The notes below the pieces were generated by a model, which did no database searches, was not told the origin of the DNA, and saw nothing but the letters and a program-made list of their open reading frames with translations. Positions 36,637-54,972 of a DNA stretch of 64,000 nucleotides are shown here, one piece after another. Each line of letters begins with the position of its first letter. Within the stretch, counting starts at the first letter, position 1. Source of the stretch: Hydrococcus rivularis NIES-593 (GTDB lineage Bacteria > Cyanobacteriota > Cyanobacteriia > Cyanobacteriales > Microcystaceae); NCBI RefSeq assembly GCF_001904635.1, contig NZ_MRCB01000004.1:62001-126000 (forward strand), written 5' to 3'. A program made the position numbers and the translations under genes.

Positions 36637-37926
36637 TTACCCGCACCCCAAACCATCTCCCCCACAACCTTCTTGCTTGACGCCACATTCGGCTTTTTGG
36701 CGCTTGCCTTTAAGCTTTCCTAAATCGCCGCCTTCATAAACTGCTTTCAATCCCTCTTCGATAAAACCATTCATCTCTACAGGCAACACGCCGCATTTGG
36801 TTAGAATTTCCTTGGGATTATCGCCCATGCTAGCTGCTAAAACAGCCCGACAATCTTTAAGCGCGTCGGCTAGTTTTTGCCACCGTTCAAATCCCGTTCC
36901 CTTGTCGGGGGCTAAACGTTCTTCTACCATATGGAAGCCTTGGTCTGTTTTTTCCCAAATCTCGAACTGGTCAGCTTGACCTAAATGTTGATTGACCAAA
37001 ATCCCTTCGTAGGAAGCGACCGCTACATAAAGTCTATTCTTGGATTCTAAAGGAACGAGCGTCTTAGAACAAGAAATCAGACAGCCATGAAACTCTTCTG
37101 ATTGGTCAGCCCCTAACAATCCTACCGCATCAGCCCGACAGCGCGTACAGTGACGCATCTGGGGTAAATATTGCTCGCATTCGTGACGAATTTTCGCCAT
37201 TGTCAAGGCATCGGGTTCGATTAAATCTTCAAAAGGCGTTTCCGCTGTGGGATACAACGCCATTGCATTGAAGAGATCTGCGCCCAATTCTGACATTTTC
37301 TTGGCGACTTCAACGGCGTGATGGTCGTTGATTCCAGGAATGATAATGCAGTTAATTTTTACGGTAATTCCTGCTGCTTTGAGTCCCTTTACGGCTTCGA
37401 GTTGGCGTTGCAGTAATAATTCTGCTCCCTTGCGTCCTTGATAGACGGTTTTGCCATCTCTAACCCAACGGTAAACCTTGCGAGTAATTTCTGGATCGAT
37501 CGCGTTAATGGTTACTGTAACGTGAGAAACCCCAATTTTCGCTATCTCTTCAATATATTCTGGTTTTAATCCCAATCCGTTAGTAGCCAAACACAATATT
37601 AACTCTGGATAGCGATTTCTCAGCAAACGCATTGTTTCCAAAGTTTCTTGTGCATTCGCAAAAGGATCGCCAGGGCCAGCAATACCAGCTACAGTAATTT
37701 TAGGTTCCTTCTCCAATACTTTATCCATGTAGAGAACCGCTTGGGCAGGAGAAAGAACGGTGCTAGTTACCCCGGGACGGCTTTCATTGACACAATCATA
37801 CTTGCGATTGCAATAGTTGCATTGAATATTGCATTTCGGCGCGACGGGTAAATGAACTCGTCCAAATTGTCCTTTTACCTTAACGTTAAAACAGGGATGT
37901 TTTTCGTAATTTACCGTGACAGTCAT
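36637..37926 (-). CDS. nifB: FeMo-cofactor biosynthesis radical SAM protein NifB
   Basis: A 429-residue enzyme that fuses two [4Fe-4S] clusters and inserts the carbide to make NifB-co. The radical-SAM motif is CNIQCNYC (C-x3-C-x2-C), followed by AGIAGPGDPFAN. Further conserved cysteines lie in HCTRCRADAVGLLG. A NifX-like domain occupies the C-terminal third (about 300-405). The tail is Cys/Gly-rich (CGVKQEGCGGDGLGCG). The ATG at 37926 has a perfect AGGAGG site; 19 upstream codons in the open frame come from a repeat. Last gene of the nif run, whereas nifB is usually first in cyanobacterial clusters. Confidence 0.97.
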   Translation of the reverse strand: MTVTVNYEKHPCFNVKVKGQFGRVHLPVAPKCNIQCNYCNRKYDCVNESRPGVTSTVLSPAQAVLYMDKVLEKEPKITVAGIAGPGDPFANAQETLETMRLLRNRYPELILCLATNGLGLKPEYIEEIAKIGVSHVTVTINAIDPEITRKVYRWVRDGKTVYQGRKGAELLLQRQLEAVKGLKAAGITVKINCIIIPGINDHHAVEVAKKMSELGADLFNAMALYPTAETPFEDLIEPDALTMAKIRHECEQYLPQMRHCTRCRADAVGLLGADQSEEFHGCLISCSKTLVPLESKNRLYVAVASYEGILVNQHLGQADQFEIWEKTDQGFHMVEERLAPDKGTGFERWQKLADALKDCRAVLAASMGDNPKEILTKCGVLPVEMNGFIEEGLKAVYEGGDLGKLKGKRQKAECGVKQEGCGGDGLGCG

Positions 37927-37944
37927 GGTTCTTCCTCCTATTTT

Positions 37945-37988
37945 GTAGTGCGGGCATCTTGCCCGCGCGAGCGAGACGCTCACACTAC
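37945..37988. repeat. Palindromic repeat with GTAGTGCG ends, nifN-nifB gap
   Basis: Starts GTAGTGCGGGCATCTTGCCC and ends GACGCTCACACTAC. The inner GCGGGCATCTTGCCCGC is a hairpin. One of four such elements between nif genes (others at 40951, 41400 and 47832). Confidence 0.75.
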
Positions 37989-38007
37989 CTGGTCGCTGTG
38001 CGCTGAT

Positions 38008-39441
38008 TCAAAGATAACCGTATCCAACAGGCGAATCTGCTTGTTTTTTATCGATGAAGGCGTTAATAATGCGATCGAGCAGGGTTTGAGTGCCCCGATA
38101 GCCTAGATGTAAGATTCGCTGGCTGCCAAAGCGATCGTGGATGGGAAAACCCGCGCGAATAAGCGGAATGTTATGCTTGCGAGCGATAGGATAACCTTTG
38201 CTGGTGCCAATTAGGATATCCGGTTCTAACTGCTCGATTTCTTCAGAAATTTCGTAAAAATCGAAGCCTTCTTTAACGATAGGCGTTTCAGTTAAGATAT
38301 CTGAGGTTACGGCTGCGATCGCGTCTTGAAAATGCCCGCTATTGCCTCCAGAAGCGCATAGGACGGGTTTTATGCCGATTTCTGCCAAAAATGCTGTCAG
38401 CCCGACGACTAAGTCCTCCTCGCCATAAACTACTGCTCGCTTGCCGAAAACATATTTATGTCCGTCTACATAAGCATCTACTAGCCGTCCCCGTTCGAGT
38501 TCGTGCTTTCTGGGGGTTGGGCAACCGGAAACTTCTTCGAGAACATCAAAAAAGCGATCGCACTCTCGCAAGCCTATGGGCATTCCAATAGAATATAAAG
38601 GGACATGAAAGCGTTCTTGTAAGAGTTGACCTCCAGTCGAGTGCGATCGCTGGCATACTTGTCCGAACTCAATCGTAGCTTGAGAACTGCCCATGCCCTG
38701 AATTGCTGCAAGCGGGGTTCCGCCTTCAGGAATCTTCTCATAGTCTAATTGAGCCGGAGCATCCAAAGTTTCAGAAATATCTGGTAAAATTGTCCCAGAA
38801 ATACCAAAATCTCCGAGGATTTCTTTTAAATAACGGGTATCGGCTGGAGAACATAAGCCAGGCAGGATATTAACCGTTTTACTTTCTGTATGCTCATCTC
38901 CTCCTCTCCCCGTCTCCTCCTCTCCCCGTCTTCGAGTCTTCCCATCTCCAGTCGCTAACTGGTCGATTACTGCTCTCACCGTAGCGTGAAAGCCTTCCAT
39001 ATGAGTGCCACTATAGCTGGGAGTCGAAACATTTACTAGCGTTGGTAATTCTCTGTCGCCAAATTCAGCTTCAAACTCTTTCAAGAGTCTGGGAACGTCA
39101 TCGCCGATGGTTTCAGTTAGACAAGTAGTAGCGACACCGATAATTTTAGCGCCGTACTTATCCATGATGTTGAGGATACCTTTCATGAGATTGGGTCCTC
39201 CGCCATAAACGGCGTGTTTTTCGCTTAAAGACGATGAGGCGATGTCAATTGGTTCTCGAAAATGGCTGATAATATAGCGGCGCATATAGGTCGCGCATCC
39301 CTGAGAACCGTGCAAGTAAGGCACGCACCCTTCAATGCCTCGAAAAGCTAGGCAAGCACCTAGTGGTTTGCATAGTTTGCAAGCGTTGGTGGTGGAGACG
39401 TAGGACTGCGTCTTTTGTTGTATTTTTAATGTCTTAGACAT
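38008..39441 (-). CDS. nifN: FeMo-cofactor scaffold protein NifN
   Basis: A 477-residue subunit of the NifEN scaffold on which NifB-co matures to FeMo-co. It is homologous to NifK. N-terminal cysteine ligand region ACKLCKPLGACLAFRGIEG and GSQGCATYMRRY, then TTCLTETIGDD and STPSYSGTHMEGF. The NifB domain is not fused to it, unlike the NifN-B fusions of some anaerobes. Odd point: residues about 165-183 (DGKTRRRGEEETGRGGDE region) come from an invading repeat. Follows nifE; HIP1 sites are present in the coding sequence. Confidence 0.95.
   Translation of the reverse strand: MSKTLKIQQKTQSYVSTTNACKLCKPLGACLAFRGIEGCVPYLHGSQGCATYMRRYIISHFREPIDIASSSLSEKHAVYGGGPNLMKGILNIMDKYGAKIIGVATTCLTETIGDDVPRLLKEFEAEFGDRELPTLVNVSTPSYSGTHMEGFHATVRAVIDQLATGDGKTRRRGEEETGRGGDEHTESKTVNILPGLCSPADTRYLKEILGDFGISGTILPDISETLDAPAQLDYEKIPEGGTPLAAIQGMGSSQATIEFGQVCQRSHSTGGQLLQERFHVPLYSIGMPIGLRECDRFFDVLEEVSGCPTPRKHELERGRLVDAYVDGHKYVFGKRAVVYGEEDLVVGLTAFLAEIGIKPVLCASGGNSGHFQDAIAAVTSDILTETPIVKEGFDFYEISEEIEQLEPDILIGTSKGYPIARKHNIPLIRAGFPIHDRFGSQRILHLGYRGTQTLLDRIINAFIDKKQADSPVGYGYL
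38893..38949 (-). repeat. Repeat insertion within nifN
   Basis: Two copies of CTCCTCCTCTCCCCGT followed by CTTCGAGTCTTCCCATCTCC, a purine-rich cyanobacterial intergenic repeat, translated in frame as an Arg/Glu/Gly-rich loop. It interrupts a region between two conserved NifN blocks (AVIDQLA and VNILPGL). Confidence 0.7.
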
Positions 39442-39475
39442 GGCTCTAAGCCTCGATTATATAGGTGTTTTTATC

Positions 39476-39556
39476 TCACGCAGAGGAGGCACGGGTGCGG
39501 AACCTGCGTCCGCACAATGAGTGCCGTCGCGCAGAGGCGCAAAGGGTTCGCAGAGA
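39476..39556. repeat. Repeat cluster with AACCTGCGT-loop hairpin, nifE-nifN gap
   Basis: GTGCGG (39495-39500), loop AACCTGCGT, CCGCAC (39510-39515) form a six-bp hairpin, flanked by CGCAGAGG/CGCAGAGAGG motifs. The same loop, on a different stem, occurs at 59308-59330 between rpoB and rpoC2. Confidence 0.65.
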
Positions 39557-39558
39557 GG

Positions 39559-40920
39559 TTATACTGATTTGGCACGGGTTCTGCGAGGGACGAAGCGCCA
39601 GACGGGGGACATGACGGTGGAGTGGACTTCTTTGGCGAAGTTGAGCATTCCGACAAAGCCTTCTAGGGCTTCTTTGCGTTCGTGGTTGTGGTCGCAGAAG
39701 CCAAGTCCTAGTTTGTAGGCGATGGGACGTTCTTTTACGCCGCCGACGAAGATATCTACATCTTTTTCTTTGAGGAAGGCAGATAGTTCTAAGGGGTTGG
39801 AATCGTCTACAATAATCGTGCCTTCATCGGTGACTTCGTGCAGTTCTTTGTAGTCTTCGCTAGTGCCCGTCTGCGAACCGACCATCACGACATCCATTCC
39901 CAACAGTCGAAACGCTTTGACGAGGGAGAAGGCTTTGAAGGCACCGCCGACGTAGATAGCGGCTTTTTTCCCCTGCAAGTCTTTGCGGTATTCTTGAAGT
40001 TTGGGATAGAGGACAGCGATTTCATCGCGGACTACTTGTTGAGCGCGCTTGAGGATTTCGGGGTCGTCTTTGAAGAAGTTGGCGACTTTGTATAAGGCAT
40101 CTGCCATATCTTCGATGCCGAAGTAGGAAGCTTTCACGAAAGGAATGCCGTATTTCTCTTTCATCATTTTGGCTAAGTCCATCGTCGCCCCAGAACATTG
40201 AACGACGTTGAGGGCAGCACCGTGCGATCGCGCGATATCTTTTACTCGTCCGTCACCCGTGATATTTGCCACTACCTGAATGCCCATGCGTTCGTAATAT
40301 TCTCGGATAATCCAGATTTCCCCCGCCAGGTTAAAGTCTCCCAGAATGTTGATGCTGTGGGGAGAAATCCCAGTCGTGTCGCCCGTACCTACCAAGCGGA
40401 ACATGGCTCTGCAAGCGGCATTGTATCCTGCCCGCTTATTGCCTTTAAATCCTTCAGACTGCACGGGAATAACTGGGATACCTTTTTCTTGGCTAACTTG
40501 CTTGCAGATGCTCTCCATGTCGTCGCCGATAATGCCGACAATGCAAGTAGAGTAGACAAAGGCAGCATTGGGATGATGGCGATCGATCAGTTCGATTAAC
40601 GCTTGCTGAAGTTTTTTCTCGCCGCCGAAGATGACATCTCTTTCTTGTAAGTCAGTGGAAAAACTCAGGCGGTGTAATTCAGGACCAGAAGACAATGCAC
40701 CCCGAATATCCCAAGTATAGGCGGCACAACCGATGGGGCCGTGGACTAAGTGTATTGCATCGGCGATGGGATAGAGGACGACCCGCGAACCACAAAAGAC
40801 GCACGCTCTTTGACTGACAGCTCCCGCTAAACTATCCTTATTGCAGGCTAACTGAAAGGGAGCATCGCCTTTGCGGTGAATTTGATCGGCACGTTCTTGA
40901 AAGATAACTGTGTCAGTCAT
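39559..40920 (-). CDS. nifE: FeMo-cofactor scaffold protein NifE
   Basis: A 453-residue NifD homologue forming the NifEN scaffold. It shows QRACVFCGSRVVLYPIADA, HGPIGCAAYTWDIRG and STCIVGIIGDD, plus GFKGNKRAGYNAACRAM. The C-terminal block reads FCDHNHERKEALEGFVGM. Normal length. Ribosome site AAGGTAAC before the ATG. Lies downstream of the ferredoxin gene, from which it is separated by a tandemly duplicated repeat element. One HIP1 site in the coding sequence. Confidence 0.96.
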   Translation of the reverse strand: MTDTVIFQERADQIHRKGDAPFQLACNKDSLAGAVSQRACVFCGSRVVLYPIADAIHLVHGPIGCAAYTWDIRGALSSGPELHRLSFSTDLQERDVIFGGEKKLQQALIELIDRHHPNAAFVYSTCIVGIIGDDMESICKQVSQEKGIPVIPVQSEGFKGNKRAGYNAACRAMFRLVGTGDTTGISPHSINILGDFNLAGEIWIIREYYERMGIQVVANITGDGRVKDIARSHGAALNVVQCSGATMDLAKMMKEKYGIPFVKASYFGIEDMADALYKVANFFKDDPEILKRAQQVVRDEIAVLYPKLQEYRKDLQGKKAAIYVGGAFKAFSLVKAFRLLGMDVVMVGSQTGTSEDYKELHEVTDEGTIIVDDSNPLELSAFLKEKDVDIFVGGVKERPIAYKLGLGFCDHNHERKEALEGFVGMLNFAKEVHSTVMSPVWRFVPRRTRAKSV

Positions 40921-40930
40921 GGGTCGTTAC

Positions 40931-41065
40931 CTTTTGATGGTTGGTTTGTTGTAGTGCGAGCGTCTCGCTCGCTTACCGTTGTACTCGCTTTTGATGGTTG
41001 GTTTGTTGTTGCGAGCGTCTCGCTCGCTTACCGTTGTACTCGCGCGGGCAAGATGCCCGCACTAC
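40931..41065. repeat. Tandem duplication plus palindromic repeat, ferredoxin-nifE gap
   Basis: Two copies of a 55-57-base unit (40931-40987 and 40988-41042), each starting CTTTTGATGGTTGG and containing GCGAGCGTCTCGCTCGC. The second copy lacks two bases. Element ends are GTAGTGCG (40951) and CGCACTAC (41058-41065). The right end supplies the TAG stop of the ferredoxin gene. Confidence 0.85.
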
Positions 41066-41379
41066 TTAGCAAATAAATAATCTTCTGCCGCCTTCCCTTC
41101 TTCTAGCGCATCGAGAATTTCGTCGATCGCAGCTTCATCGACCTCTCCATACCAATAGTTATCGGGATAAATCATCATGACGGGGCCGTGGTCGCACAGT
41201 TTCAGGCATCCCGTCGAAGAAACGAGGACATCATCCAAACCGCGATCGCTCAGTTCGCTTTCTAGATATTGAATGAGTGGGACAGCCCCTTTGCGTCCGC
41301 AAACGCCCTGAGCGTCGCCTTTCATTCTAAAGGACGCACAAACAAAAATGTGATGTTTTGGTTTTGTTAGTTTAACCAT
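41062..41379 (-). CDS. Thioredoxin-like [2Fe-2S] ferredoxin in the nif cluster
   Basis: A 105-residue protein of the thioredoxin-like [2Fe-2S] ferredoxin family. Cluster cysteines are visible at HIFVCASFRMKGDAQGVCG and SSTGCLKLCDHGPV, giving the C-x11/12-C...C-x3-C pattern, and MMIYPDNYWYGEV follows. Clostridium pasteurianum has a related ferredoxin that interacts with the MoFe protein, and similar genes sit in nif clusters of anaerobes. It probably serves nitrogenase as electron carrier or in cofactor assembly; this is inference. Strong AAAGGAGGTAA site. The TAG stop belongs to the adjacent repeat. Confidence 0.88.
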   Translation of the reverse strand: MVKLTKPKHHIFVCASFRMKGDAQGVCGRKGAVPLIQYLESELSDRGLDDVLVSSTGCLKLCDHGPVMMIYPDNYWYGEVDEAAIDEILDALEEGKAAEDYLFAK

Positions 41380-41399
41380 TTTCGTTACCTCCTTTTGTC

Positions 41400-41495
41400 G
41401 TAGTGCGAGCGTCTCGCTCGCGGATTGTATATTATCCGCTCGCAGGCAAGACGCGAAGCGCCCCTCCAGCGAGAGCGAAGGCTCTCCCGCACTAC
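41400..41495. repeat. Palindromic repeat with GTAGTGCG ends, nifK-ferredoxin gap
   Basis: Begins GTAGTGCGAGCGTCTCGCTC and ends CTCTCCCGCACTAC; the outer ends are inverted copies. It fills nearly the whole gap between the nifK stop and the ferredoxin ribosome site. Confidence 0.75.
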
Positions 41496-41507
41496 AATCG
41501 ATCTGTA

Positions 41508-42878
41508 TTACAGCACTAATTCAAACACTTCATCGGGATCGTCGCGATCTTTGCGTTCGAGGATCGTGTTGATAATGTTGCACAATAGATGCATACTGCC
41601 GCGATAGCCGAAGCTGGGGAAGAGACTATGACCAACGCGATCGAGAATGGGCCAGCCGTAGCGTACTAAGGGAATGTCTTCTGCACGGGCGATATACTTG
41701 CCATAGACGTTGCTAATTAACAAGTCTACGGGTTTGTTCTTGATAAGTTGATGCAGATAGAATAGGTCGGCGTTGTCGCGGATAACGGCATCGGGAACCC
41801 AATCTTTCAGGATTTCCTTACACCGAGTGACAAAATACGGAGAAACCGTACCCGTAATGACGTAGACGGGTTTAGCGCCGCAGCTTACCAAGAATTCGGT
41901 CACTGCAACCATTTGATCGGGGTCGCCGGAGAGGGCAACCCGCTTGCCATAGAGATATTGTTGCCAGTCAGTCATTAAGTCTACCAGCTTGCCTCGTTCG
42001 TCCATGAGGGATTCTGGCGGTTCGATTCCGGTGGTTTCGATGACTGCTTGAACAAAGCGATCGCACGCCGCAATCCCGACGGGTAAATCAAGTACTTTAT
42101 AAGGAACTTGGCATTTATTCTCTAATGCCACTGCTGCTGCTTTACTGGCATCTCCCAACGCTAGCGTATAGAGGCTGTCGCCTGTAGAACGAAGGGCTTC
42201 TACGGTCGTTCCGCCTTTTGGATACATCCGAAAATCGCCTGTTTGAGGAGTATCGACGACATCGGAAGTGTCGGGGAATACTACTGACTCAACTCCAAGC
42301 GTTTGCAAAAACTGCTTTAGATGGCGAACGTCGGATGGCTCTACATAGCCAGGGATGACGTTAAGCTGGTTTTTGGTCGTACCAGTCTTTTCGGACAGGT
42401 ACTTCACCATTGCTTCGGTCATATTCGACCAACCCGTGATATGGGTGCCGACGTAGCTGGGCGTGTTAGCGTGAATAACCGTTTTGCCTTCTGGAATAAT
42501 TCCGCTTTCGCGAGCTTCTCGGATAATGGTAGGAATGTCATCCCCAATGGTTTCCGATAAGCAAGTGGTATTGACGGCAATTACGTCTGGGTTGTACAGT
42601 TTGTACATCGTCGTGAATGCTTGGCGCAAGTTAGCACTGCCGCCAAATACTGCCGCCCCTTCCGTAAAAGAGCTAGTCGCTGCCATAATTGGCTCTTTGT
42701 AGTGACGAGTCAAGTGCGATCGGTGATAAGCGCAGCAGCCTTGCGAGCCGTGGGAATGGGGCAAACAGCCATGAATCCCTAATGCAGCATACATTGCACC
42801 GATAGGCTGGCAAGTTTTGGCAGGATTGATGCGTAATGCCTTGCGTTCGATAATTTCTTTGGGGGTCAATTCTAACAT
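41508..42878 (-). CDS. nifK: Nitrogenase MoFe protein beta subunit NifK (short type)
   Basis: A 456-residue beta subunit of dinitrogenase. P-cluster ligands are present in KTCQPIGAMYAALG, HGSQGCCAYHRSH and NTTCLSETIGDD, and the serine region NTPSYVGTH follows. It lacks the roughly 50-residue N-terminal extension of Azotobacter and ordinary cyanobacterial NifK (about 510-523 residues), matching the Clostridium-type subunit. Ribosome site GAGGAG in a leader identical to that of nifD. One HIP1 site in the coding sequence. Confidence 0.97.
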   Translation of the reverse strand: MLELTPKEIIERKALRINPAKTCQPIGAMYAALGIHGCLPHSHGSQGCCAYHRSHLTRHYKEPIMAATSSFTEGAAVFGGSANLRQAFTTMYKLYNPDVIAVNTTCLSETIGDDIPTIIREARESGIIPEGKTVIHANTPSYVGTHITGWSNMTEAMVKYLSEKTGTTKNQLNVIPGYVEPSDVRHLKQFLQTLGVESVVFPDTSDVVDTPQTGDFRMYPKGGTTVEALRSTGDSLYTLALGDASKAAAVALENKCQVPYKVLDLPVGIAACDRFVQAVIETTGIEPPESLMDERGKLVDLMTDWQQYLYGKRVALSGDPDQMVAVTEFLVSCGAKPVYVITGTVSPYFVTRCKEILKDWVPDAVIRDNADLFYLHQLIKNKPVDLLISNVYGKYIARAEDIPLVRYGWPILDRVGHSLFPSFGYRGSMHLLCNIINTILERKDRDDPDEVFELVL

Positions 42879-42907
42879 AATATTTTCTCCTCAATTGTGA
42901 GCCTCTT

Positions 42908-42966
42908 GTCCTCTGTCACTGGTCATTTGTCATTGGCACAAAGAACAAATGACAAAGGACAAATAA
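42908..42966. repeat. GTCATTTGTCATTGG-type repeat, nifD-nifK gap
   Basis: GGTCATTTGTCATTGG followed by its inverse ACAAATGACAAAGGAC gives an imperfect hairpin directly after nifD. Same family as the segment inside mfd and the ones at 44655-44755 and 59239-59290. Confidence 0.65.
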
Positions 42967-44640
42967 CTACTTCTGCCACGGTGCTTTGATGTATTTCCAC
43001 GCTTGACCGTTGACGCGCAGATCGACATCTTTTGCAAAGTTGACTGCGCCTCGGAACCCAGCAAAGGGTCCGCCGTAGTCGTAGCTATGCAACTGTTTGC
43101 AAGGGATGCCAAACTTCTCGATGATGTATTTGTCTTTAATCCCAGAACCGATGAGGTCGGGTTTAAAGCGTTTAATCAATACATCGAGTTCGTGGTGAGA
43201 GATATTGTCTACCAGTAAGGTATCTTCGCCCATGTCTGGCATCATCCCTTCGTAATCCCCAATCACTTTTTCTTCCCGCAACTGTTCTAGGACTTCTGGG
43301 GGACGAGTGGGATTGTATCGTTCGGGGTCGGGTTCGACTTCTAATTCTTCGATGTTGCGGCTGTCGGCATCAACCCTAATTTTTGGCAATGCCTGCCGTC
43401 CTTCGTAGTCGTCGCGGTGAGCGAACTCATATCCTGCTACAATCGTCTTCATACCAAGATCGGCAAATAATTCTTGGTAGTGGTGGGCGCGAGAACCACC
43501 AACAAATAGGAATACAGTTTTACCTTCCAAGCGCTTGCGATATTCGGCAAGTTGCGCCTCGGCAAGCGCTATTTCTTCAGTGAGTACTTCTTCTACCCGC
43601 GCGGTGAGTTCGGGGTTATCAAAGAAGCGAGCGACTTTACGAATGCTCTTGGCGAATGCATGGATGCCAATGAAGTTGACTTTAATCCAAGGAACTCCAT
43701 ATTTAGTCTCCATCATCGTTGCCATGTAGTTGATGGAACGGTGACACATAACTAAGTTAACTTTCGCTAGGTGCGCCTTAGTTGCTGCATCATAAGTGCC
43801 GTCGCCACTAAAAGTCGCTACGGTTTTAATGCCGCATTTTTCGAGAACGCGCTCGATTTCCCAAGCATCGCCGCCGATGTTGTATTCTCCCATCAGGTTG
43901 ACGGTGAAGCCCTCGATTTCTTCAGTTTCTGTATCCGTACCAATCCAGTGTTTGAAGAAACCGTTGTTGGCGATGTGGTGTCCTGCCGATTGGCTGACTC
44001 CTTTGTAACCTTCGCAGTTAAAAGCAACTACAGGAAGTCCCAGTTCCTCGGTTAACTCTTTCGCTGCACCTTGAATGTCGTCGCCAATTAAACCTACTGG
44101 ACAGGTAGCGTGAATGGTAATAGATTTTGGCTTGGGATCGAAAATATTGTATGCTTCGCGAACGGCTGTTTTGAGTTTATTGATGCCGCCAAAGACGATA
44201 TCCTCTTCTTGCAAGTCGGTGGAGAAGCTATAGTTGAGCCAGTTTCGTCCATCTTCGCGGGTTTTATATTGGTTGCGTCGCGTCATCCAGGCATAGTAAG
44301 AACAGCCAATGGGGCCGTGAACGATGTGGATGCAATCGCCAAAGGGTCCGACGACCACCCCTTTACAACCTGCATAAGCGCAACCCCTCTGGGTGATGAT
44401 GCCAGGAGTCGTTCTTTCGTTGGCGGCGATTTCTTGGTCTATTTCTTCGGGATTGCGAATGATGACGTGTTTGCTGCGTTTTTTAGCCACTTTGGCGGGG
44501 TAAGCTTCGAGAATTTCTTCAACTGTTTCCCGTGTCTCCTCTTTACTAATCGGAGATCTGGAGAGCATTACTTCTTCTTTTGCTTGCGCCGCCTGAACTT
44601 CTACATCGGTTTTAGGCGCTAAAAATGTGTTGTCTGTCAT
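42967..44640 (-). CDS. nifD: Nitrogenase MoFe protein alpha subunit NifD (long, anaerobe type)
   Basis: A 557-residue alpha subunit; ordinary cyanobacterial NifD is about 480-490. P-cluster cysteines lie in RGCAYAGCKGVVVGP, HGPIGCSYYAW and ATCPVGLIGDD. FeMo-co ligands are the Cys in LVMCHRSINYM and the His in QLHSYDY (equivalent to Cys275 and His442 of Azotobacter). The Val70, Arg96, Gln191/His195 and Arg359 equivalents are all there. The extra length is mainly an insertion of about 50 residues between EFAHRDDYEG and GEDTLLVDN, rich in Pro/Glu, as in Clostridium-type NifD. No HIP1 octamer seen in the gene. First of the nifDK pair. Confidence 0.97.
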   Translation of the reverse strand: MTDNTFLAPKTDVEVQAAQAKEEVMLSRSPISKEETRETVEEILEAYPAKVAKKRSKHVIIRNPEEIDQEIAANERTTPGIITQRGCAYAGCKGVVVGPFGDCIHIVHGPIGCSYYAWMTRRNQYKTREDGRNWLNYSFSTDLQEEDIVFGGINKLKTAVREAYNIFDPKPKSITIHATCPVGLIGDDIQGAAKELTEELGLPVVAFNCEGYKGVSQSAGHHIANNGFFKHWIGTDTETEEIEGFTVNLMGEYNIGGDAWEIERVLEKCGIKTVATFSGDGTYDAATKAHLAKVNLVMCHRSINYMATMMETKYGVPWIKVNFIGIHAFAKSIRKVARFFDNPELTARVEEVLTEEIALAEAQLAEYRKRLEGKTVFLFVGGSRAHHYQELFADLGMKTIVAGYEFAHRDDYEGRQALPKIRVDADSRNIEELEVEPDPERYNPTRPPEVLEQLREEKVIGDYEGMMPDMGEDTLLVDNISHHELDVLIKRFKPDLIGSGIKDKYIIEKFGIPCKQLHSYDYGGPFAGFRGAVNFAKDVDLRVNGQAWKYIKAPWQK

Positions 44641-44654
44641 AATATTTTCTCCTC

Positions 44655-44755
44655 TGTTTCAGTTACCAGTTATTTGTCATTTGTCATTTGTCCTTTGTCA
44701 CTTGTTCTTTGTACTAATAACTTTTGTACTAATAACTAATGACAAAGGACCATCT
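44655..44755. repeat. GTCATTTGTCCTTTGTC-type repeat, nifI2-nifD gap
   Basis: Several tandem TTTGTCATTTGTCCTTTG units followed by duplicated ACTAATAACTTTTGT and the inverse ATGACAAAGGACC; can form a long hairpin between nifI2 and nifD. Confidence 0.7.
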
Positions 44756-44771
44756 TCACTGGTTACTGTAA

Positions 44772-45167
44772 TTAGCCAGTCATTTCATCAACAGCGATCG
44801 CGCCAGTAACACCATTGCTCACCCGAACGGCTTCTTCTACTGGCAGAACGAAGATCTTACCGTCTCCAGGATTGCCTGTTTGGTTGGCGGCGATTAAGGT
44901 TTCAACAACTTTTGCTACCTTGTCGTCGGGAACGACTACGCTAATCAAACGCTTAGCAAGCAACTGAGGTCCGCGAGCGAGTATCGACAATACATCGCTG
45001 CTATCTTCTGGGTGTTCGTTGAGATTAGCGCACAGTTGAAAGTCAACAGCTTGCTTTCCTCGACCGACGACTTTGATGGCATTGAAGGCGGGGAACCCTG
45101 CTGCTACTAATGCTTCTTTTGTCGGGGTAATTTTGTTGGGTCTGATAACTGCCATCACTTCTTTCAT
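44772..45167 (-). CDS. nifI2: PII-like nitrogenase regulator NifI2
   Basis: A 131-residue PII-family protein. Starts MKEVMAVIRPNKITPTKEAL and carries the RGKQAVDF T-loop entry. The T-loop differs in sequence and length from GlnB. The C-terminal part has NPGDGKIFVLPVEEAVRVSNG. In Methanococcus maripaludis the NifI1-NifI2 complex binds dinitrogenase and switches it off when ammonium is added; 2-oxoglutarate relieves this. ATG at 45167 with GAGGAGAGG chosen; the frame is open 26 codons upstream. One HIP1 site near the 3' end. Confidence 0.92.
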   Translation of the reverse strand: MKEVMAVIRPNKITPTKEALVAAGFPAFNAIKVVGRGKQAVDFQLCANLNEHPEDSSDVLSILARGPQLLAKRLISVVVPDDKVAKVVETLIAANQTGNPGDGKIFVLPVEEAVRVSNGVTGAIAVDEMTG

Positions 45168-45263
45168 GACACCTCTCCTCGCTAAATTGGTTCTTGGTAA
45201 TGTATTGGTCATTTGTCCTCTGTTGATTCTTTGGCAAATGACCAACGATGCGCGAAAAAAGGA

Positions 45264-45629
45264 TTAGACTTTGGCTAATGGTTTAGTCGGGGGAGCGGCG
45301 ACATATTCTTGTTTCCCAGAGCTAACTGTATAGACTTCTTCGACTGGGGTAACAAAAATCTTGCCGTCTCCAGGTGCCCCTATGTTCCCAGTGCGGGCAC
45401 TTGCCAAGATGGTTTGGATGACGAAGCGTTTTTCTGAGTTGGGGACGACTACCATCAAGCAAACCTTGGGCAGTTCGTCGTAAACGACATTGCCGATTTT
45501 GAGACCCCCTTGTTTACCTCGACCGTAAACATCAATTTTGGTAACTGCTGGATATCCTGCATCCAAAAGCGCCTGCATGACTTCGGCACATTTTTCAGGT
45601 CGAATAATCGCTCTGACCATAAGAGTCAT
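45264..45629 (-). CDS. nifI1: PII-like nitrogenase regulator NifI1
   Basis: A 121-residue PII-family protein encoded directly after nifH. It shows MVRAIIRPEKCAEVMQAL, VTKIDVYGRGKQGGL and GAPGDGKIFVTPVEEVYTV. The short T-loop with GLKIGNVVYDELPK and the position between nifH and nifD are diagnostic for NifI1 rather than GlnB. Ribosome site GGAGG nine bases before ATG. A small stem (GAGAG/CTCTC at 45661-45678) lies between it and nifH and might stabilise or process the nifH transcript. Confidence 0.93.
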   Translation of the reverse strand: MTLMVRAIIRPEKCAEVMQALLDAGYPAVTKIDVYGRGKQGGLKIGNVVYDELPKVCLMVVVPNSEKRFVIQTILASARTGNIGAPGDGKIFVTPVEEVYTVSSGKQEYVAAPPTKPLAKV

Positions 45630-45702
45630 GGTAGTTTACCTCCATTTCATTAAGGGGGATGAGAGATGACAAACTCTCTTAGTTCTCGGTTTTCCGTCGC
45701 CA

Positions 45703-46912
<1,210 letters not shown>

Positions 46913-47809
46913 TTACAAAATAGCTTCAACTACGAGATCGGGAGAAACTCTTTCTTGCAACTTTGCTTCAATTCCCATTTTGAGAGTAGCGGTCGCGCTC
47001 GGACAACCATCGCAAGCACCTTTTAGTATTACTAGCACTCGGTTTCCTTCAACATCGTACAATTCTACATCTCCGCCATCTGTAGCAAGAAACGGACGCA
47101 CTTCTTTCTCGAGAATTTCTTGGATGAGAGATATCTTTTGCAAGTTAGTTAGAGGGACAGATGCAGAGGTTTTGGAGAGAGAAGGAGAGCGAGTGAAACT
47201 AGCTTCTATTTGTTGTGTCTGTTCGTTAACTTCTGCTAGTAGATCGTCTATGTCTGCCAAACAGGAACCGCATCCGCCACCTGCTTTGATGTAGTTGGTG
47301 ACTTCTTCGGCAGTGGTCAGGTGATTTTCTCGAATGACTCGTTTGATTTGATCTTGACTGACGGCAAAGCATTTACATACTAACCGACTGTCATCATCTT
47401 CGTCTTGTCTGATGGAAACACCTTTGTAGTTGGCAATGGCAGCTTCTAGCGCTTCTTGTCCCATGACGGAACAATGCATCTTTTCCTGGGGTAAACCGTC
47501 TAGATAGTCAGCAATGTCGCGGTTGCTAATTTTAAGGGCATCATCTACCTTCATTCCCTTAACTAAATCGGTGAGTGCGGAGGACGATGCGATCGCGCTG
47601 GCACAGCCAAAAGTCTCAAAGCGAGCATCTAGAATAGTGTCAGTTTCTCGATCTATTTTCAGATACAGTCTTAAAGCATCTCCACAAGCAACACTCTCCA
47701 CCTCGCCTATCGCGATCGCTTCTCCCGCTTTGCATTCATCAGGCGCGATCGCTCCGATGTTATGGGGATGATAAAACAGATCCATTACTTTTTCGCTATA
47801 GTCCCACAT
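46913..47809 (-). CDS. nifU: Fe-S cluster scaffold NifU
   Basis: A 298-residue full-length three-domain NifU. The N-terminal IscU-like domain has cysteines in VACGDALRL, FGCASAIASSSA and MHCSVMGQEAL. The central [2Fe-2S] domain has LVCKCFAVS and GGGCGSCLADI. The C-terminal Nfu domain has GACDGCPSATATLKMG. It builds clusters for nitrogenase using sulfur from NifS. Three HIP1 sites in the gene. The upstream leader lies in repeat sequence and lacks a clear ribosome site. Confidence 0.96.
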   Translation of the reverse strand: MWDYSEKVMDLFYHPHNIGAIAPDECKAGEAIAIGEVESVACGDALRLYLKIDRETDTILDARFETFGCASAIASSSALTDLVKGMKVDDALKISNRDIADYLDGLPQEKMHCSVMGQEALEAAIANYKGVSIRQDEDDDSRLVCKCFAVSQDQIKRVIRENHLTTAEEVTNYIKAGGGCGSCLADIDDLLAEVNEQTQQIEASFTRSPSLSKTSASVPLTNLQKISLIQEILEKEVRPFLATDGGDVELYDVEGNRVLVILKGACDGCPSATATLKMGIEAKLQERVSPDLVVEAIL

Positions 47810-47831
47810 TTTCAGTTACCAGTCCCCTTAA

Positions 47832-47914
47832 GTAGTGCGAGCGTCTCGCTCGCGTGTGCAGAATACCTGTTGTGCGGGAGCATATCCCATTGGCGGGCAG
47901 GATGCCCGCACTAC
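47832..47914. repeat. Palindromic repeat with GTAGTGCG ends, nifS-nifU gap
   Basis: Begins GTAGTGCGAGCGTCTCGCTC and ends GGCGGGCAGGATGCCCGCAC plus TAC. The right end, read on the minus strand, gives the TAG stop codon of nifS. Confidence 0.8.
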
Positions 47915-49173
47915 ATTTTTGTGAGCAACTGTTCGTTGCTTACTGATTTCAGCCAGCCTTTTTCTTCATCTTTCTCACTCTTAAAAGGTGAAATAGAGCG
48001 CAGGCGTTCTACAATTGTTGGCATGACTTCCAACACTCTCTCGATCTGTTCTCCACTGTTGTAACGGGAGAGGCTAAAGCGGAGCGAACCGTGGAGGAAG
48101 GTGTAAGGCAGTCCCATTGCGCGCAAGACGTGGGAGGGTTCCAATGAACCGGAAGTACAGGCGGAACCAGAAGAGGCGCAAATGCCTTCGCGATCCAACA
48201 TCAACAACAATGCTTCGCCTTCGACGTACTTAAAGCCGATGTTAGTAGTATTAGGCAAGCGCTTGCTGTGATGACCGTTGAGTTGACAGTCAGGGATGGC
48301 AGTCAGTAGTCCTTGTTCGAGGCGATCGCGCAATGCTCTTACTCTAGTACTTTCTTCATCTAAATGTGCGATCGCAAGTTCTGCTGCTTTACCCATCCCA
48401 ACGATACCAGGGACATTTTCCGTTCCTGCTCGCCGTCCTCGTTCCTGGTGTCCGCCAACCAAAAACGGACGGAAGCGAACGCCTTTACGGATATAAAGAG
48501 CGCCAATTCCTTTCGGTGCATGAAGCTTATGACCGGACATCACCAAGAAATCGACGGTACTATCTTTCATATTTAAAGGAATTTTTCCAACTCCTTGCAC
48601 TGCATCGACGTGAAATAAAATGCCTCGCTCTTTGACAATCTGTCCGATGCGCTCGATGGGGAAAATGTTTCCCGTCTCGTTGTTGGCGCACATAATTGAA
48701 ACGAGAGCAGTATTATCGTGGAGCGAGGCTTTTAGCTCGTTTAAGTTGAGTTGACCTTTGCGATCTACGGAAAGATATGTAATGCTATAACCTTCTTGTT
48801 CTAACTTTTTGCAAAGATTAAGAACTGCCGGATGTTCTACTTGCGTCGTGACGATGTGGCGCTTATCCGGCAGCGCTGCCAGTGCGGCGCGAATGGCAGC
48901 GTTATCTCCTTCACTTCCACAGCTTGTAAAAACGATTTCAGTTGGTTGTGCGCCAATTAATGTAGCTACGTTTTCTCGCGCTTCTTTGACTTTTCTGGCG
49001 ACCTGTCCGCCAAAGGTGTGCATACTAGAGGGATTGCCGTAGTACTGCGTCAGGTAAGGCAGCATTGCTTCTATTACTTCCCCTGCTACCTGCGTGGTGG
49101 CGTTGTTATCGAGATAAATAACTTCCGACTTCGCTCCCACTTCCGACTTCTGACTTCCGACTTCCAACTTCAT
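47911..49173 (-). CDS. nifS: Cysteine desulfurase NifS
   Basis: A 420-residue PLP enzyme giving sulfur to NifU. It shows VIYLDNNATTQVAGEV, the PLP lysine in MSGHKLHAPKG, the active-site cysteine in SSGSACTSGSLEPSHVL, and ends with an added tail SVSNEQLLTKM. Odd points: residues 2-17 (KLEVGSQKSEVGAKSE) are encoded by a TTCCGACTTC-type intergenic repeat, and the stop codon comes from another repeat. The start overlaps the stop of the upstream gene (ATGA). Two HIP1 sites. Confidence 0.95.
   Translation of the reverse strand: MKLEVGSQKSEVGAKSEVIYLDNNATTQVAGEVIEAMLPYLTQYYGNPSSMHTFGGQVARKVKEARENVATLIGAQPTEIVFTSCGSEGDNAAIRAALAALPDKRHIVTTQVEHPAVLNLCKKLEQEGYSITYLSVDRKGQLNLNELKASLHDNTALVSIMCANNETGNIFPIERIGQIVKERGILFHVDAVQGVGKIPLNMKDSTVDFLVMSGHKLHAPKGIGALYIRKGVRFRPFLVGGHQERGRRAGTENVPGIVGMGKAAELAIAHLDEESTRVRALRDRLEQGLLTAIPDCQLNGHHSKRLPNTTNIGFKYVEGEALLLMLDREGICASSGSACTSGSLEPSHVLRAMGLPYTFLHGSLRFSLSRYNSGEQIERVLEVMPTIVERLRSISPFKSEKDEEKGWLKSVSNEQLLTKM
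49121..49170 (-). repeat. TTCCGACTTC-type repeat forming the NifS N-terminus
   Basis: Four partial copies of CTTCCGACTT/CTCCCACTTCCGAC directly inside the nifS start codon. A fragment of the same motif occurs at 411-430. Confidence 0.7.
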
Positions 49174-49538
49174 ACCATCGCCTCCTCAGATTGCTGCCAC
49201 TTTTGGTAATAGTCAAACACTGCCGTTTCGATCGCGTCGTAGACTTGAACGGGTTCAATTCCTGCTGTGTGCAAGCGATCTTCTGCACTAGTTCCAATTT
49301 TTAAAACTAAAACGGCTTTGCAATCAGAAAGCTTTTGGAGGATGTCGTCCATTGCACTTTGTTCGCCGTAGCCACCTTTGCAGTAGGGAATGACTTGACG
49401 GCTTTCTAGAAAGGTAGCTTGTGTTTCATCTACTTCATAGATCTGAAATTCTTTGGCGTGACCGAAGTGTTCGTTGACGATTCCTCCGCCTTTTGTGGCA
49501 ACCGCCACTCGAATTGAATCCCGGACAGTAATCATCAT
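49170..49538 (-). CDS. NifX/NafY-like FeMo-cofactor-binding domain protein
   Basis: A 122-residue protein of the dinitrogenase iron-molybdenum cofactor family (single NifX/NifB C-terminal-like domain). It shows RVAVATKGGGIVNEHFGHAKEFQIYEV, with the characteristic HFGHA, and ends near DYYQKWQ. It is related to the C-terminal domain of NifB in the same cluster and may carry NifB-co or FeMo-co. AGGAGATAA site before ATG-ATG. First gene of the nif run; overlaps nifS by four bases. Confidence 0.88.
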   Translation of the reverse strand: MMITVRDSIRVAVATKGGGIVNEHFGHAKEFQIYEVDETQATFLESRQVIPYCKGGYGEQSAMDDILQKLSDCKAVLVLKIGTSAEDRLHTAGIEPVQVYDAIETAVFDYYQKWQQSEEAMV

Positions 49539-50336: not shown

Positions 50337-50639
50337 ATGAAGATTCAAATAGAGAGTAATGACTTCGAGGAAAAATCTTATTGCCACTTATGCGGTAGTG
50401 TCTTTTATCCCACCGAGGTCATAGCAAGAGCTTATAGGGATTCCGGCGAATACATAAGCGATGTTTGTCCCCAGTGTATCGCTGCCGAACCAGAGGGAAT
50501 GCGCCTGAGAATGCGCCGACGTGCTGAAACGATGAAAGCGATCGCATCCGAACTCGAACGATTGACCAGAGACGAGATTGAATCTCCCAGCCTCGACCAT
50601 TTCAGGGTTGCCAATCAAATTGCCAAGGCATTGCAGTAG
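50337..50639 (+). CDS. Small protein with Cys4 zinc-ribbon motif
   Basis: A 100-residue protein with CHLCG near residue 16 and CPQC near residue 44, probably a structural zinc site, then a basic helix (MRLRMRRRAETMKAIASELERL). Family not recognised; possibly a DNA- or protein-binding regulator. It is transcribed away from the nif run across the 798-base gap. Confidence 0.6.
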   Translation: MKIQIESNDFEEKSYCHLCGSVFYPTEVIARAYRDSGEYISDVCPQCIAAEPEGMRLRMRRRAETMKAIASELERLTRDEIESPSLDHFRVANQIAKALQ

Positions 50640-50805
50640 GTTTGGGCTATTAATTAACAAAAGCAATCCAACGGCTAAGTCACTCGCAACGATAAATATC
50701 TTATTGTTTAATATCGGAGCGAACAGCCCGAAAATCTATGAAGAACCAGTTCCGCTTCCGAAGATAAAGCGATCGCATTCCAACTCGAACGGCAACAAAA
50801 CCTTC

Positions 50806-51342
50806 TCACAATTTGACAATAAAACTGTCTCGCCGATGAAAGTCTGCTTGCGAACCGCGATGACTCAACGCCCAGTAAGTAATATTCCCGTCTTTAGATT
50901 TGACGACGGCAGTAACGGCAACGTCTAGGGTTCGATCGGCTAGGATACACTTATTCAAATCGAGTTCTAAAGTCAGCAGCAAAGCACTCGATTGACGCTG
51001 GACGCTAAACGGCAGAGACGCAATGGCAAGTTCCTCTTGCATCCCTTGCCGATAATCGTCAAAGCGATAGACATTCCAATGTCCTGCTGGCGAAAGGTTA
51101 AACTCCCAATAACAGGTTGAATTCTCAATGCCAAGGAAGAACTCGAAACAAGTTTCTTGCCAAAGTTCGTGCTTGCGGGCTCGCAAATCCGCGATCGCGG
51201 GAATGATAATTGTTGCTAAATCGCCGAGAAGTGTATAGCGAACGGTTAATCTATTCCCATTTCGGGCAATGCTGCCGTTAATCTTTAAATCGGGCAGCGA
51301 GTTTAAGCCAAATGGCTGCAAGGAAAAACTTTGCTCGTTCAT
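50806..51342 (-). CDS. DOMON-like domain protein
   Basis: A 178-residue protein resembling the bacterial DOMON-like type 1 (CBM9-like) family: a beta-sandwich with RKHELWQETCFEFFLG and YWEFNLSPAGHWNVYRFDDYRQGM, which in relatives binds sugars or haem. No signal peptide. It overlaps the upstream kinase-like gene by ATGA, so the two are translationally coupled. Ligand unknown. Confidence 0.75.
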   Translation of the reverse strand: MNEQSFSLQPFGLNSLPDLKINGSIARNGNRLTVRYTLLGDLATIIIPAIADLRARKHELWQETCFEFFLGIENSTCYWEFNLSPAGHWNVYRFDDYRQGMQEELAIASLPFSVQRQSSALLLTLELDLNKCILADRTLDVAVTAVVKSKDGNITYWALSHRGSQADFHRRDSFIVKL

Positions 51343-52454
51343 CGCGTTGCCTGAATAATGTCGCGAATGGTGGCTTCCTGAGATTCGATACTCTCGGTGA
51401 GCTTAAATTGTACGAGTGCCCTAGCAAGATTGTGTTCTGGATACTTAACCTTAAAGTAGACATTCCCTTCTAAATAATCGGTGAAAAATCGCAGCCCCAA
51501 CTCGAAAGCAATCAGGCGAATTGCGTCGTACAGATATTCATAGTCATTTTCGGTGAGGAAATCTTTTGCCACAAAGAGATAGCCTTGCAGGATGGACTGG
51601 CAAATGTCGGTGTCGAAACGCACCATCTCCCACTGTTCGGTTTCTTCTCCTAAAGGGTTGCAGCCCGATCGCAAGCAATCTCCGATATCATAATGAACTA
51701 AGCCAGGTTTAACGGTGTCGAGGTCGATCAGGCTAATGCCATGCCCGGTGGTAGTGTCGATCATGACATTGTTAACCTTCGGGTCGCCATGGATGGGACG
51801 CAGGCGCAGATGTCCTTTCGCTTGGGCATTTTCGAGGACGTGCGCCCAAGCTTTGCGATCGCGGACAAACTGCAAACAATACTCCACTTCTCTAGGTTGA
51901 TTCGCGCTGGTTTGTGGAGACCTTACATGTAACCTCTCCACCTTTTCATAATGCTGAAGGTAACGCGGTGTAATGTGAAACCCTTCTAATGTGTCAACCA
52001 ATTTTTCGACGGGCAAATCGCCAATCAGTTTATGAAATGTAGCGAGTGCATAGCCGACTTCGCGGGCGTGTTTGCTATCTTTAATGGTGTCAAAAGACTG
52101 TGCGGCTTCAATAAAACTAATTGCCCGCCAGAACGATCCCTTAGAATCAATCCAGTAATCTTGAGCATCCTGCGTCAGGAGGACTCGCGGAACCTCCCAG
52201 CGTCGTCCGCCGCCGAGAGGGGCGCGTTGCAAGCGATCGCGAACATGCTGGGTAAAGATACTCATGTTCTGCATAACGAGTTCTGGTTGACGAAACACTT
52301 GCGTGTTGATGCGTTGCAGGATAAAGTGTTTTTCTTGCGGGGAATCTAGGATTACCAGAAAGGTGCTATTGATATTGCCATGCCCAAATTCCTGGATATC
52401 GATAACTTTCCCCTGCGGCTTGAATCGATTTGCAATGTCAATAAGATTATTCAA
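51339..52454 (-). CDS. Aminoglycoside-phosphotransferase-fold kinase
   Basis: A 371-residue protein kinase-like small-molecule kinase. It shows FGHGNINSTFLV (nucleotide loop), the catalytic loop PIHGDPKVNNVM and the metal-binding SLIDLDTV. It resembles the N-acetylhexosamine 1-kinase/choline kinase branch (APH family, PF01636). The substrate is likely a sugar or amino alcohol; the coupled DOMON-like gene would fit a sugar. Resistance function is not implied. Confidence 0.8.
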   Translation of the reverse strand: MNNLIDIANRFKPQGKVIDIQEFGHGNINSTFLVILDSPQEKHFILQRINTQVFRQPELVMQNMSIFTQHVRDRLQRAPLGGGRRWEVPRVLLTQDAQDYWIDSKGSFWRAISFIEAAQSFDTIKDSKHAREVGYALATFHKLIGDLPVEKLVDTLEGFHITPRYLQHYEKVERLHVRSPQTSANQPREVEYCLQFVRDRKAWAHVLENAQAKGHLRLRPIHGDPKVNNVMIDTTTGHGISLIDLDTVKPGLVHYDIGDCLRSGCNPLGEETEQWEMVRFDTDICQSILQGYLFVAKDFLTENDYEYLYDAIRLIAFELGLRFFTDYLEGNVYFKVKYPEHNLARALVQFKLTESIESQEATIRDIIQATR

Positions 52455-52993
52455 GGTTTTGCCCGTTGGATTGAGATACTGGAAGAATTATAGAAAAATT
52501 TTTGTATAACACCTCTAGATGGATGATTAAGCAGAAAGTTCCGGTTCATTTCCCGGCTTGCGATCGCATATTTGGAAGGTTAACTCGTTATTTGGTATTA
52601 TCTCAGTAACGTCTTGAATGAGATCGACGAAGTAGATTAAATTGCTACTTACTTTCGTTGAGGCGCTAAGTGAAATGGCTTAAATCGGTTGTCGATCGCG
52701 ATCGCACAAAACTACTGCAACTTAACAAAGTTAAGCCGATTGCACGTTTTAATTAGAATTAAAGCAGCTAAGTTAAACCTTCGCCGAATTCGCCGATCGA
52801 TCCTCAAGAATTTCATTATCTTTCTCGTTTTTTGCGATCGCAGTTATTATTTACTCGAATCGTTCGCCAATCTTTTATGCAAAGTTTCAATATTCCCATC
52901 TGAGGCGTTGCCGAAATCGTCCAGGAGCAAGTCAGCCAACAACTATACCCCAATCGATAACTTAGCGAGCTAGCTTGTTAAGCGGTTCGATCT
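52455..52993. other. Intergenic region between kinase-like gene and hisD
   Basis: 539 bases upstream of the kinase-like gene and downstream of hisD. A 94-codon frame (52689-52973, TTG start) is present, but it is rich in basic and rare residues, has no ribosome site and no family similarity I recognise. No RNA gene seen. Confidence 0.4.
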
Positions 52994-54298: not shown

Positions 54299-54518
54299 GG
54301 AGTCTCAATGCCCGCAGTAGCTACTATCCGCGTAAGTTTGGCGAGACCCTGGCTCGCAAAACTCACACCTATAGCTTAACTTGGATTTTTACTCGCTCGC
54401 TTTATGAAGAAAGAAACTTCTTTCTTCCAGATTAATTGAAAATTTATGGCTTTTGTTGTTAGAATGATATGTCCTATTCTATTGTTTCTGTCTACCCAAA
54501 CGATTTTATAAGACAACT

Positions 54519-54812: not shown

Positions 54813-54972
54813 TTCTACGCCTGCCCAGGAGAGCGAAGGCGGGACACAAGCGAGTTGACCAACTAACACAAAACTGCCAAACTTTCTTAAGGGAGGTTAG
54901 ATTGCGGGGAATTACAGCTCAGTTAGCTCTCAGGAGGACGATACGAGCAAAATGTCTCGCCGGGAGGATTAG

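Follow-up and report, generated by a model that had tools for sequence, protein, structure and literature searches.

How a cyanobacterium came to hold a nitrogenase (nif) gene cluster arranged like those of anaerobes is the question raised by a 64,000-nucleotide stretch of DNA (the window) from Hydrococcus rivularis NIES-593, contig NZ_MRCB01000004.1, positions 62,001 to 126,000, part of a 67-contig draft genome designated G000. The original prediction, made from the letters alone, was of a nifH-I1-I2-D-K-fdx-E-N-B cluster in the gene order of anaerobes, acquired by horizontal transfer from a deltaproteobacterial-like source through the same event as in Coleofasciculus chthonoplastes or a parallel one. 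Our analysis makes it highly probable that the locus is a hybrid molybdenum (Mo) nitrogenase operon that was fused once, has spread horizontally and is kept beside a canonical cyanobacterial nif cluster. In the labels of the comparison set, G-numbers are genomes, L-numbers loci, C-numbers contigs and f-numbers family groups, with the host lying within f1; G634, G635 and G636 are genomes from its genus, the last two being drafts (92% and 91% complete, respectively).

The operon runs along the minus strand from 49538 down to 36637 in the order nifB'-nifS-nifU-nifH-nifI1-nifI2-nifD-nifK-fdx-nifE-nifN-nifB, the gene order of a hybrid operon, and each of its 12 genes is one open reading frame (ORF) with a single terminal stop in G000. 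The features are listed below, with NCBIfam calls judged against curated cut-offs.

49170..49538, minus strand: nifB', a stand-alone tail of canonical-type NifB with a Nitro_FeMo-Co domain, 122 aa (PF02579)
47911..49173, minus strand: nifS, cyanobacterial type (TIGR03402, 646 bits, above cut-off)
46913..47809, minus strand: nifU, long form, cyanobacterial type (TIGR02000, 404 bits, above cut-off)
46528..46912, minus strand: nifU-nifH intergenic region, 385 bp, junction of the two halves (by position)
45703..46527, minus strand: nifH, anaerobe type (TIGR01287, 455 bits, above cut-off)
45264..45629, minus strand: nifI1 (P-II family, PF00543; between nifH and nifD)
44772..45245, minus strand: nifI2, start codon uncertain (P-II family, PF00543; position)
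42967..44640, minus strand: nifD, 557 aa (TIGR01282, 671 bits, above cut-off; ligand motifs)
41508..42878, minus strand: nifK, short form, 456 aa (TIGR01286, 438 bits, above cut-off; ligand motifs)
41062..41379, minus strand: 2Fe-2S ferredoxin (best fit the clostridial-type model NF041612, 88.9 bits, below its cut-off of 150)
39559..40920, minus strand: nifE, anaerobe type (TIGR01283, 641 bits, above cut-off)
38008..39441, minus strand: nifN, anaerobe type, named by position in an order kept in relatives (nifK model TIGR01286, 303 bits, and nifN model TIGR01285, 296 bits, both below cut-off)
36637..37983, minus strand: nifB, anaerobe type, complete (TIGR01290, 398 bits, above cut-off; radical-SAM CxxxCxxC at residue 51)

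The NCBIfam and P-II matches and the open frames bear out the predicted nifH-I1-I2-D-K-fdx-E-N-B order, intact and on one strand, with nifN identified by position. The anaerobe order applies to the nifH-to-nifB part; within the same span, the original prediction had left out of its order the NifB-tail ORF, nifS and nifU, which are of cyanobacterial type. The tail ORF matches positions 328-439 of the NCBIfam NifB model (100.6 bits, under the whole-protein cut-off). Motif comparison with the canonical copies showed that NifD, NifK, NifH and NifB keep residues aligned to the canonical cluster ligands and that NifH keeps its P-loop; NifD has an insert of about 58 residues (about 413-472) without a match in canonical NifD. 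The paired P-II family genes sit between nifH and nifD, as is the case for the NifI1/NifI2 switch.

The anaerobe-type half was placed with a 92-row tree of concatenated H-D-K-E-N-B (17 anaerobe-type and 13 canonical cyanobacterial rows and 62 others; quick method, LG+G4) and with FastTree single-gene trees of 69 to 106 rows. As only ORFs covering at least 70% of the reference protein were used, some trees lack genomes with partial genes, G028 and G091 among them; G634 and G636 are not among the rows of these trees or of the NifS and NifU trees described below. All 17 anaerobe-type cyanobacterial rows formed one clade (support 100) among the Desulfobacterota, and they lay on one side of a branch in five of the six single-gene trees (H 98, D 96, K 88, E 99, B 99). 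In all six, a branch with support 100 set the canonical cyanobacterial rows apart. In this phylogenetic check, which had been proposed with the original prediction, NifH, NifD, NifK, NifE, NifN and NifB of the operon fell outside the canonical cyanobacterial proteins every time. The locus of Sodalinema sp. P-1104 (L126, genome G171; matched to the named P-1104 record L014) fell within the anaerobe-type cyanobacterial clade.

A search of 395 genomes from the phylum of the genome carrying L053, a Desulfomonile-like cluster, found nearer NifD proteins, up to 68%. In a 39-row tree of chosen rows (twelve nearer Desulfobacterota added, 10 cyanobacterial rows, quick method; the two rows meant as outgroup came out apart), all 10 cyanobacterial rows fell in one clade (100), whose sister rows were G1019, G782 and G796 (97). 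G1019 is probably Desulfomonile tiedjei. The Desulfomonile-like clusters L053 and L305 (G1019) share the order H-I1-I2-D-K-fdx-E-N-B, and L309 (G782) has the same order from nifI1 on, its nifH lying outside the examined stretch; two of the three sisters (L305 and L309) thus have a ferredoxin gene between nifK and nifE, as in the operon. Unlike in the hybrid, nifU and nifS of the L053 genome are on another contig. Desulfonatronovibrionaceae have been placed near the cyanobacterial clade (PMC12694226; this and the other papers cited here were covered in part), and none of the rows used here is known to belong to them. PLSDB held three records with more than 60% identity to the NifD, all from Nitratidesulfovibrio vulgaris (63%) and none cyanobacterial, so this search points to no plasmid vehicle. 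These nearest plasmid-borne NifD genes are on NC_008741.1, NC_017311.1 and NZ_CP116248.1, N. vulgaris plasmids of 175-202 kb.

The other half was examined with a NifS tree of 63 rows (49 of them different) and a NifU tree of 47 rows (36 different), in which 17 and 11 non-cyanobacterial genomes, respectively, supplied the outgroup. Hybrid NifS formed a single clade (100/99), as did hybrid NifU (99/99) within 25 cyanobacterial rows, the order among which is not settled by the tree. Both proteins went with the canonical cyanobacterial rows (100/100), apart from the outgroup, and the host's two NifS were not mutual nearest relatives, nor were its two NifU. The nifB' product shares 51% identity with the tail of the canonical NifB in the host and was split from the anaerobe NifB tails, including that of the operon's own far-end nifB (100/100); where it falls among NifX and the canonical NifB tails is not settled by the tree. 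Within the phyla sampled as outgroup, NifB', NifS and NifU are thus of cyanobacterial type, and a Desulfobacterota-type nifH-to-nifB block joined to a cyanobacterial-type nifB'-S-U therefore makes the operon a hybrid. The nifB' gene, called possibly non-functional in the description of Sodalinema (PMC12694226), has a ratio of nonsynonymous to synonymous divergence (dN/dS) of 0.08 to G634 and 0.20 to G636 and therefore looks constrained.

Among 291 genomes from the order, 16 gave NifD matches of at least 72%, those of G028 and G091 being partial, after which the best match fell to 48%. In an overlapping sample of 388 genomes from the class, four passed E 1e-120; G327 (71%) is the one of these outside the 16. 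With two more genomes from the genus, anaerobe-type operons total 19 genomes in nine family groups. Such a patchy occurrence over distant families might mean that several cyanobacterial lineages each acquired the genes from Desulfobacterota. PMC12694226 leaves it unclear if the nitrogenase of sulfate reducers came into cyanobacteria by one event or by more, and G327 and G091 have no nifB'-S-U beside their genes on the examined side. Against separate acquisitions stand the single clade of all anaerobe-type cyanobacterial rows, which includes G327 and G091 in the 92-row tree, the same junction with a complete nifB'-S-U flank in 14 of the 19 operons, and the single clades of NifS and NifU. As for the remaining operons, G028 has parts of nifS and nifU, with nifB' not found, and the contigs of G157 and G258 stop before the flank. 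The common junction and the single NifS and NifU clades therefore favour one fusion, and we consider separate acquisitions very improbable. Because the operon forms one clade with the other anaerobe-type cyanobacterial operons, the same event is indicated rather than a parallel one; the grouping with C. chthonoplastes itself rests on published descriptions.

The host also carries a canonical nifB-fdxN-S-U-H-D-K-E-N-X cluster on contig C56, whose proteins fall with two other f1 rows (L133 and L134; 95) in the concatenated tree. The two NifD of the host are 40% identical and the two NifH 71%. Since a canonical cluster is present elsewhere in the genome, the import was an addition and not a replacement. 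Within the genus, anaerobe-type NifD occurs in three of four genomes (100, 99 and 92%) and canonical NifD in all four. G634 (99% NifD), probably Pleurocapsa sp. PCC 7327, has both clusters on one 4,986,817-base contig, about 0.48 Mb apart. Overall, canonical NifD accompanies the hybrid in five of the 19 genomes, namely G000, G091 and G327 (85% or more; 17 examined) together with G634 and G636, and was found in none of the seven operon-bearing f9 genomes, Sodalinema P-1104 among them. In G327 (L131/L132, C203), the anaerobe set and canonical nifB-S-U-H-D-K are on the same contig, about 9 kb apart.

In a 67-contig draft, contamination or mis-binning might have placed one of the nif clusters in the genome. 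The surroundings argue otherwise. The operon is flanked by proA beyond nifB and by rpsT-like, tatD and rpoB genes beyond nifB', with proA, rpsT and rpoB as originally claimed, and this rpoB, in the same window as the operon, groups with f1 (82/88). G634, with both clusters on one contig, has the same operon neighbours as G000 on both sides, and the guanine-plus-cytosine content of the operon is within the range of the window. We therefore give contamination next to no weight.

Having found two clusters, we compared synonymous divergence (dS) between G000 and G636. Eleven of the 12 hybrid genes gave 0.31-0.63 (nifU 0.85), host genes gave 0.81 (proA) and 0.82-1.40 (eight other ORFs with at least 80 aligned codons in G636, out of 12 tried beside proA), and six canonical nif genes gave 1.45-1.94, the high values being near saturation. 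The same 11 hybrid genes were thus below the lowest of the nine host genes, and the hybrid therefore probably moved after the species split between G000 and G636. Across the 12 hybrid genes, dN/dS to G636 was 0.06-0.20, indicating purifying selection. The operon tree separated f1+f19+f14+f32+f56 from f28+f5+f6+f9 (100/99), whereas the RpoB tree kept f1+f19+f28 together. Approximately unbiased (AU) tests (9 rows each, LG+G4, with RpoB alone standing in for the species tree) rejected the RpoB grouping on operon data (p-AU 1.7e-9) and the operon grouping on RpoB data (p-AU 3.1e-4); holding G000 with G244 on RpoB gave p-AU 0.027. In G636, proA is on a 10-kb contig without nif genes and different genes follow nifB on the operon contig. 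Anaerobe-type NifD was not found in the G635 draft, where the proA neighbours differ, nor in any of the 27 other f1 genomes of the order sample.

A single early gain with vertical inheritance and loss in most lineages, the dual genomes retaining an old pair, would fit a single hybrid clade scattered over nine family groups, and the operon looks vertically inherited in seven g18 genomes. It is hard to reconcile with operon and RpoB data each rejecting the other's key grouping, with 11 hybrid genes less diverged than all nine host genes while the canonical nif genes are far more diverged, and with the absence from the 27 other f1 genomes, and we judge it improbable. Horizontal spread of a once-fused hybrid accounts for the data better, and the immediate source of the host's operon was probably another cyanobacterium. 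The deltaproteobacterial-like transfer originally proposed thus stands for nifHDKENB, which lie within the Desulfobacterota, and needs amending in that the operon is a hybrid, was added to a canonical cluster and probably came directly from a cyanobacterium.

Several observations weigh against this reading. The NifN single-gene tree shows no single cyanobacterial clade, though no starred branch forbids one. Hybrid NifS is sister to the 13 canonical rows and not nested in them, and the NifS and NifU outgroup holds no Proteobacteria having NifS and NifU of the aerobic kind. The AU-test groups were picked after the trees had been seen. No nifHDK expression is tabulated for cultured C. chthonoplastes PCC 7420 in the covered part of PMC12694226, where the nifH of a related strain is expressed in nature. 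The operon is also damaged in some relatives. An insertion of 908 bp breaks nifN in G634, and the operon can therefore be dispensable. In G244, nifI1 is cut to about its first 33 codons (L117:13245-13343) with nifI2 kept, and the anaerobe set of G327 is nifH-D-K-fdx without nifI, E, N or B alongside; the NifI switch is therefore not always kept. G028 (L130) is missing parts of nifU, nifH and nifD, the nifU and nifH matches abutting and the C-terminal part of nifD being absent, which reflects decay or misassembly.

From these losses, from G091, which has just part of nifD, nifK and fdx in the examined stretch, and from the failure to find the operon in G635, it might be argued that the operon is a decaying passenger without a present role and that the canonical cluster does everything. 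This is an appreciable possibility but an unlikely one, as all 12 genes are open in G000 and their dN/dS values to G636 are low. The reduced set of G327 is perhaps served by canonical NifB and NifEN. The G634 insertion (L229:9436-10343) looks like an insertion sequence, with no copy in the searched G000 stretches; separately, NifN has a low-complexity charged stretch at about residues 175-205, and the nearby piece of G634 nifN aligns at just 65%.

The origin of the operon is shown at the level of sequence. In the history that we propose, a nifH-I1-I2-D-K-fdx-E-N-B block from Desulfomonile-like Desulfobacterota would have been joined once, in some cyanobacterium, behind cyanobacterial-type nifB'-nifS-nifU, and the hybrid would then have travelled as one unit between cyanobacterial lineages, including inside the genus after its species had diverged. 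In the cell, NifS and NifU would supply Fe-S clusters, the anaerobe-type NifB with NifEN would build the cofactor, NifHDK would fix N2, and NifI1/I2, judging from relatives, would turn the enzyme off on return of fixed nitrogen; an ammonia switch of this kind is known from methanogens (as cited in PMC5061849). By analogy with relatives, the hybrid set most likely operates where conditions are anoxic, dark or sulfidic, and the canonical set would serve ordinary diazotrophy. Sodalinema P-1104, whose only described nitrogenase is of the Desulfo-type, fixed N2 under a light/dark regime in oxic medium as well as, when sulfide was present, under anoxia (PMC12694226). A second Mo-nitrogenase of Anabaena variabilis works in vegetative cells under anaerobic conditions, and two cnfR genes are reported for strains that have two clusters (PMC8510180).

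As for regulation, no exact GTAN8TAC site was found upstream of nifB' or nifH, including the 385-bp nifU-nifH region, and this is uninformative because the upstream regions of canonical nifB and nifH have no exact site either. No 14-mer was common to the hybrid and canonical upstream regions (at most two mismatches, very AT-rich ones excluded). G636 has a CnfR-like gene near the hybrid (L232:18192-19796) and a separate copy by the canonical cluster (L233:2775-4385), 44.6% identical; G244 has one near the hybrid (L241:4434-5972). The CnfR-like genes of G636 and G244 encode a helix-turn-helix C-terminus with weak 4Fe-4S matches at the N-terminus, and partial matches of 36-37% occur near four f9 hybrids. 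A search that took in contigs C34 and C56 of G000 in full, and none of its other contigs, found no CnfR-like gene. Most canonical nif genes of G000 show a dS of about 1.0-2.4 to G636 and G635, above the compared host genes (L009 vs L233, L234 and L235), and the canonical cluster itself may have been exchanged within the genus.

On the nifB' side, two features beyond the operon were recorded.

54519-54812: rpsT, named from its own sequence
50337..50639, plus strand: small ORF, divergent from nifB', without Pfam or NCBIfam match

The ORFs from 50337 to 55791 comprise two without a family match, an APH-family gene, histidinol dehydrogenase, the rpsT-like gene and TatD, with the APH-family gene standing between the two no-match ORFs and the remaining flank genes. 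The 50337..50639 ORF, which often accompanies such operons, adjoins nifB' in G634, G636 and G244 (46 aa only in the last), is near the opposite operon end in three f5 genomes and was not found in the f6 and f9 stretches examined. The window showed neither a tRNA nor an Rfam match at gathering scores, and therefore no integration site of that kind. In the RpoB of G028 (L211), a long in-frame insert lies at about residue 603 in the numbering of the window protein, where the G137 match is also split.

The operon type is already known, from Coleofasciculus, Sodalinema, Geitlerinema PCC 9228 and Pleurocapsa PCC 7327; our additions are the dual state, the single origin and the recent mobility, the novelty of the dual state being limited to the literature covered. 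Like the host's, the Desulfo-type operon of Sodalinema spp. and C. chthonoplastes has cyanobacterial nifB'SU, with a truncated nifB', before nifH-I-D-K-E-N-B of Desulfobacterota affinity (PMC12694226). Unlike in that type, nifV, reported upstream of nifB' in Sodalinema, was not among the listed ORFs from 50337 to 55791, and the host has a canonical cluster too. The Geitlerinema sp. PCC 9228 operon (nifXSU, iscA, nifHI1I2DK, fdxN, nifENB) is also like the host's, and nifI1I2 operons occur in Pleurocapsa sp. PCC 7327, M. chthonoplastes and Phormidium OSCR, with a NifHDK clade that goes with nifI1I2 (PMC5061849). The covered part of that paper does not mention a hybrid S/U origin, a second nif cluster in PCC 7327 or a broken nifN. 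A nif cluster of PCC 7327 was aligned on nifX, with cnfR annotated, in PMC8472315; the two halves of the dual state may thus be in print apart, as this cluster and as the nifI1I2 of PMC5061849. Nine strains have two nif sets, the second from within the phylum (PMC8071049). The nif1/nif2 clusters of Anabaena variabilis, with CnfR1 and CnfR2, likewise give two Mo-nitrogenases; there both are of cyanobacterial kind, whereas one of the host's is of Desulfobacterota kind with nifI1/I2 (PMC8510180). Both nitrogenase kinds in one cyanobacterium are not stated in the covered parts of PMC8071049, PMC5061849, PMC12694226, PMC12903952, PMC8399215, PMC5452144 and PMC8472315; Chen et al. 2022 and Bolhuis et al. 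2010 are outside this coverage.

Taken together, the trees and the common hybrid junction favour a single entry of sulfate-reducer nitrogenase into cyanobacteria. More tentatively, and with the balance slightly against it, some cyanobacteria may hold two Mo-nitrogenases of independent ancestry for differing redox conditions, the anaerobe set, wired to cyanobacterial Fe-S genes, persisting as a mobile self-contained module. A genome with both nitrogenases is a natural test of an anaerobe's nitrogenase in an oxygen-producing cell and of its fitting to a new host, which bears on nitrogen-fixation engineering.

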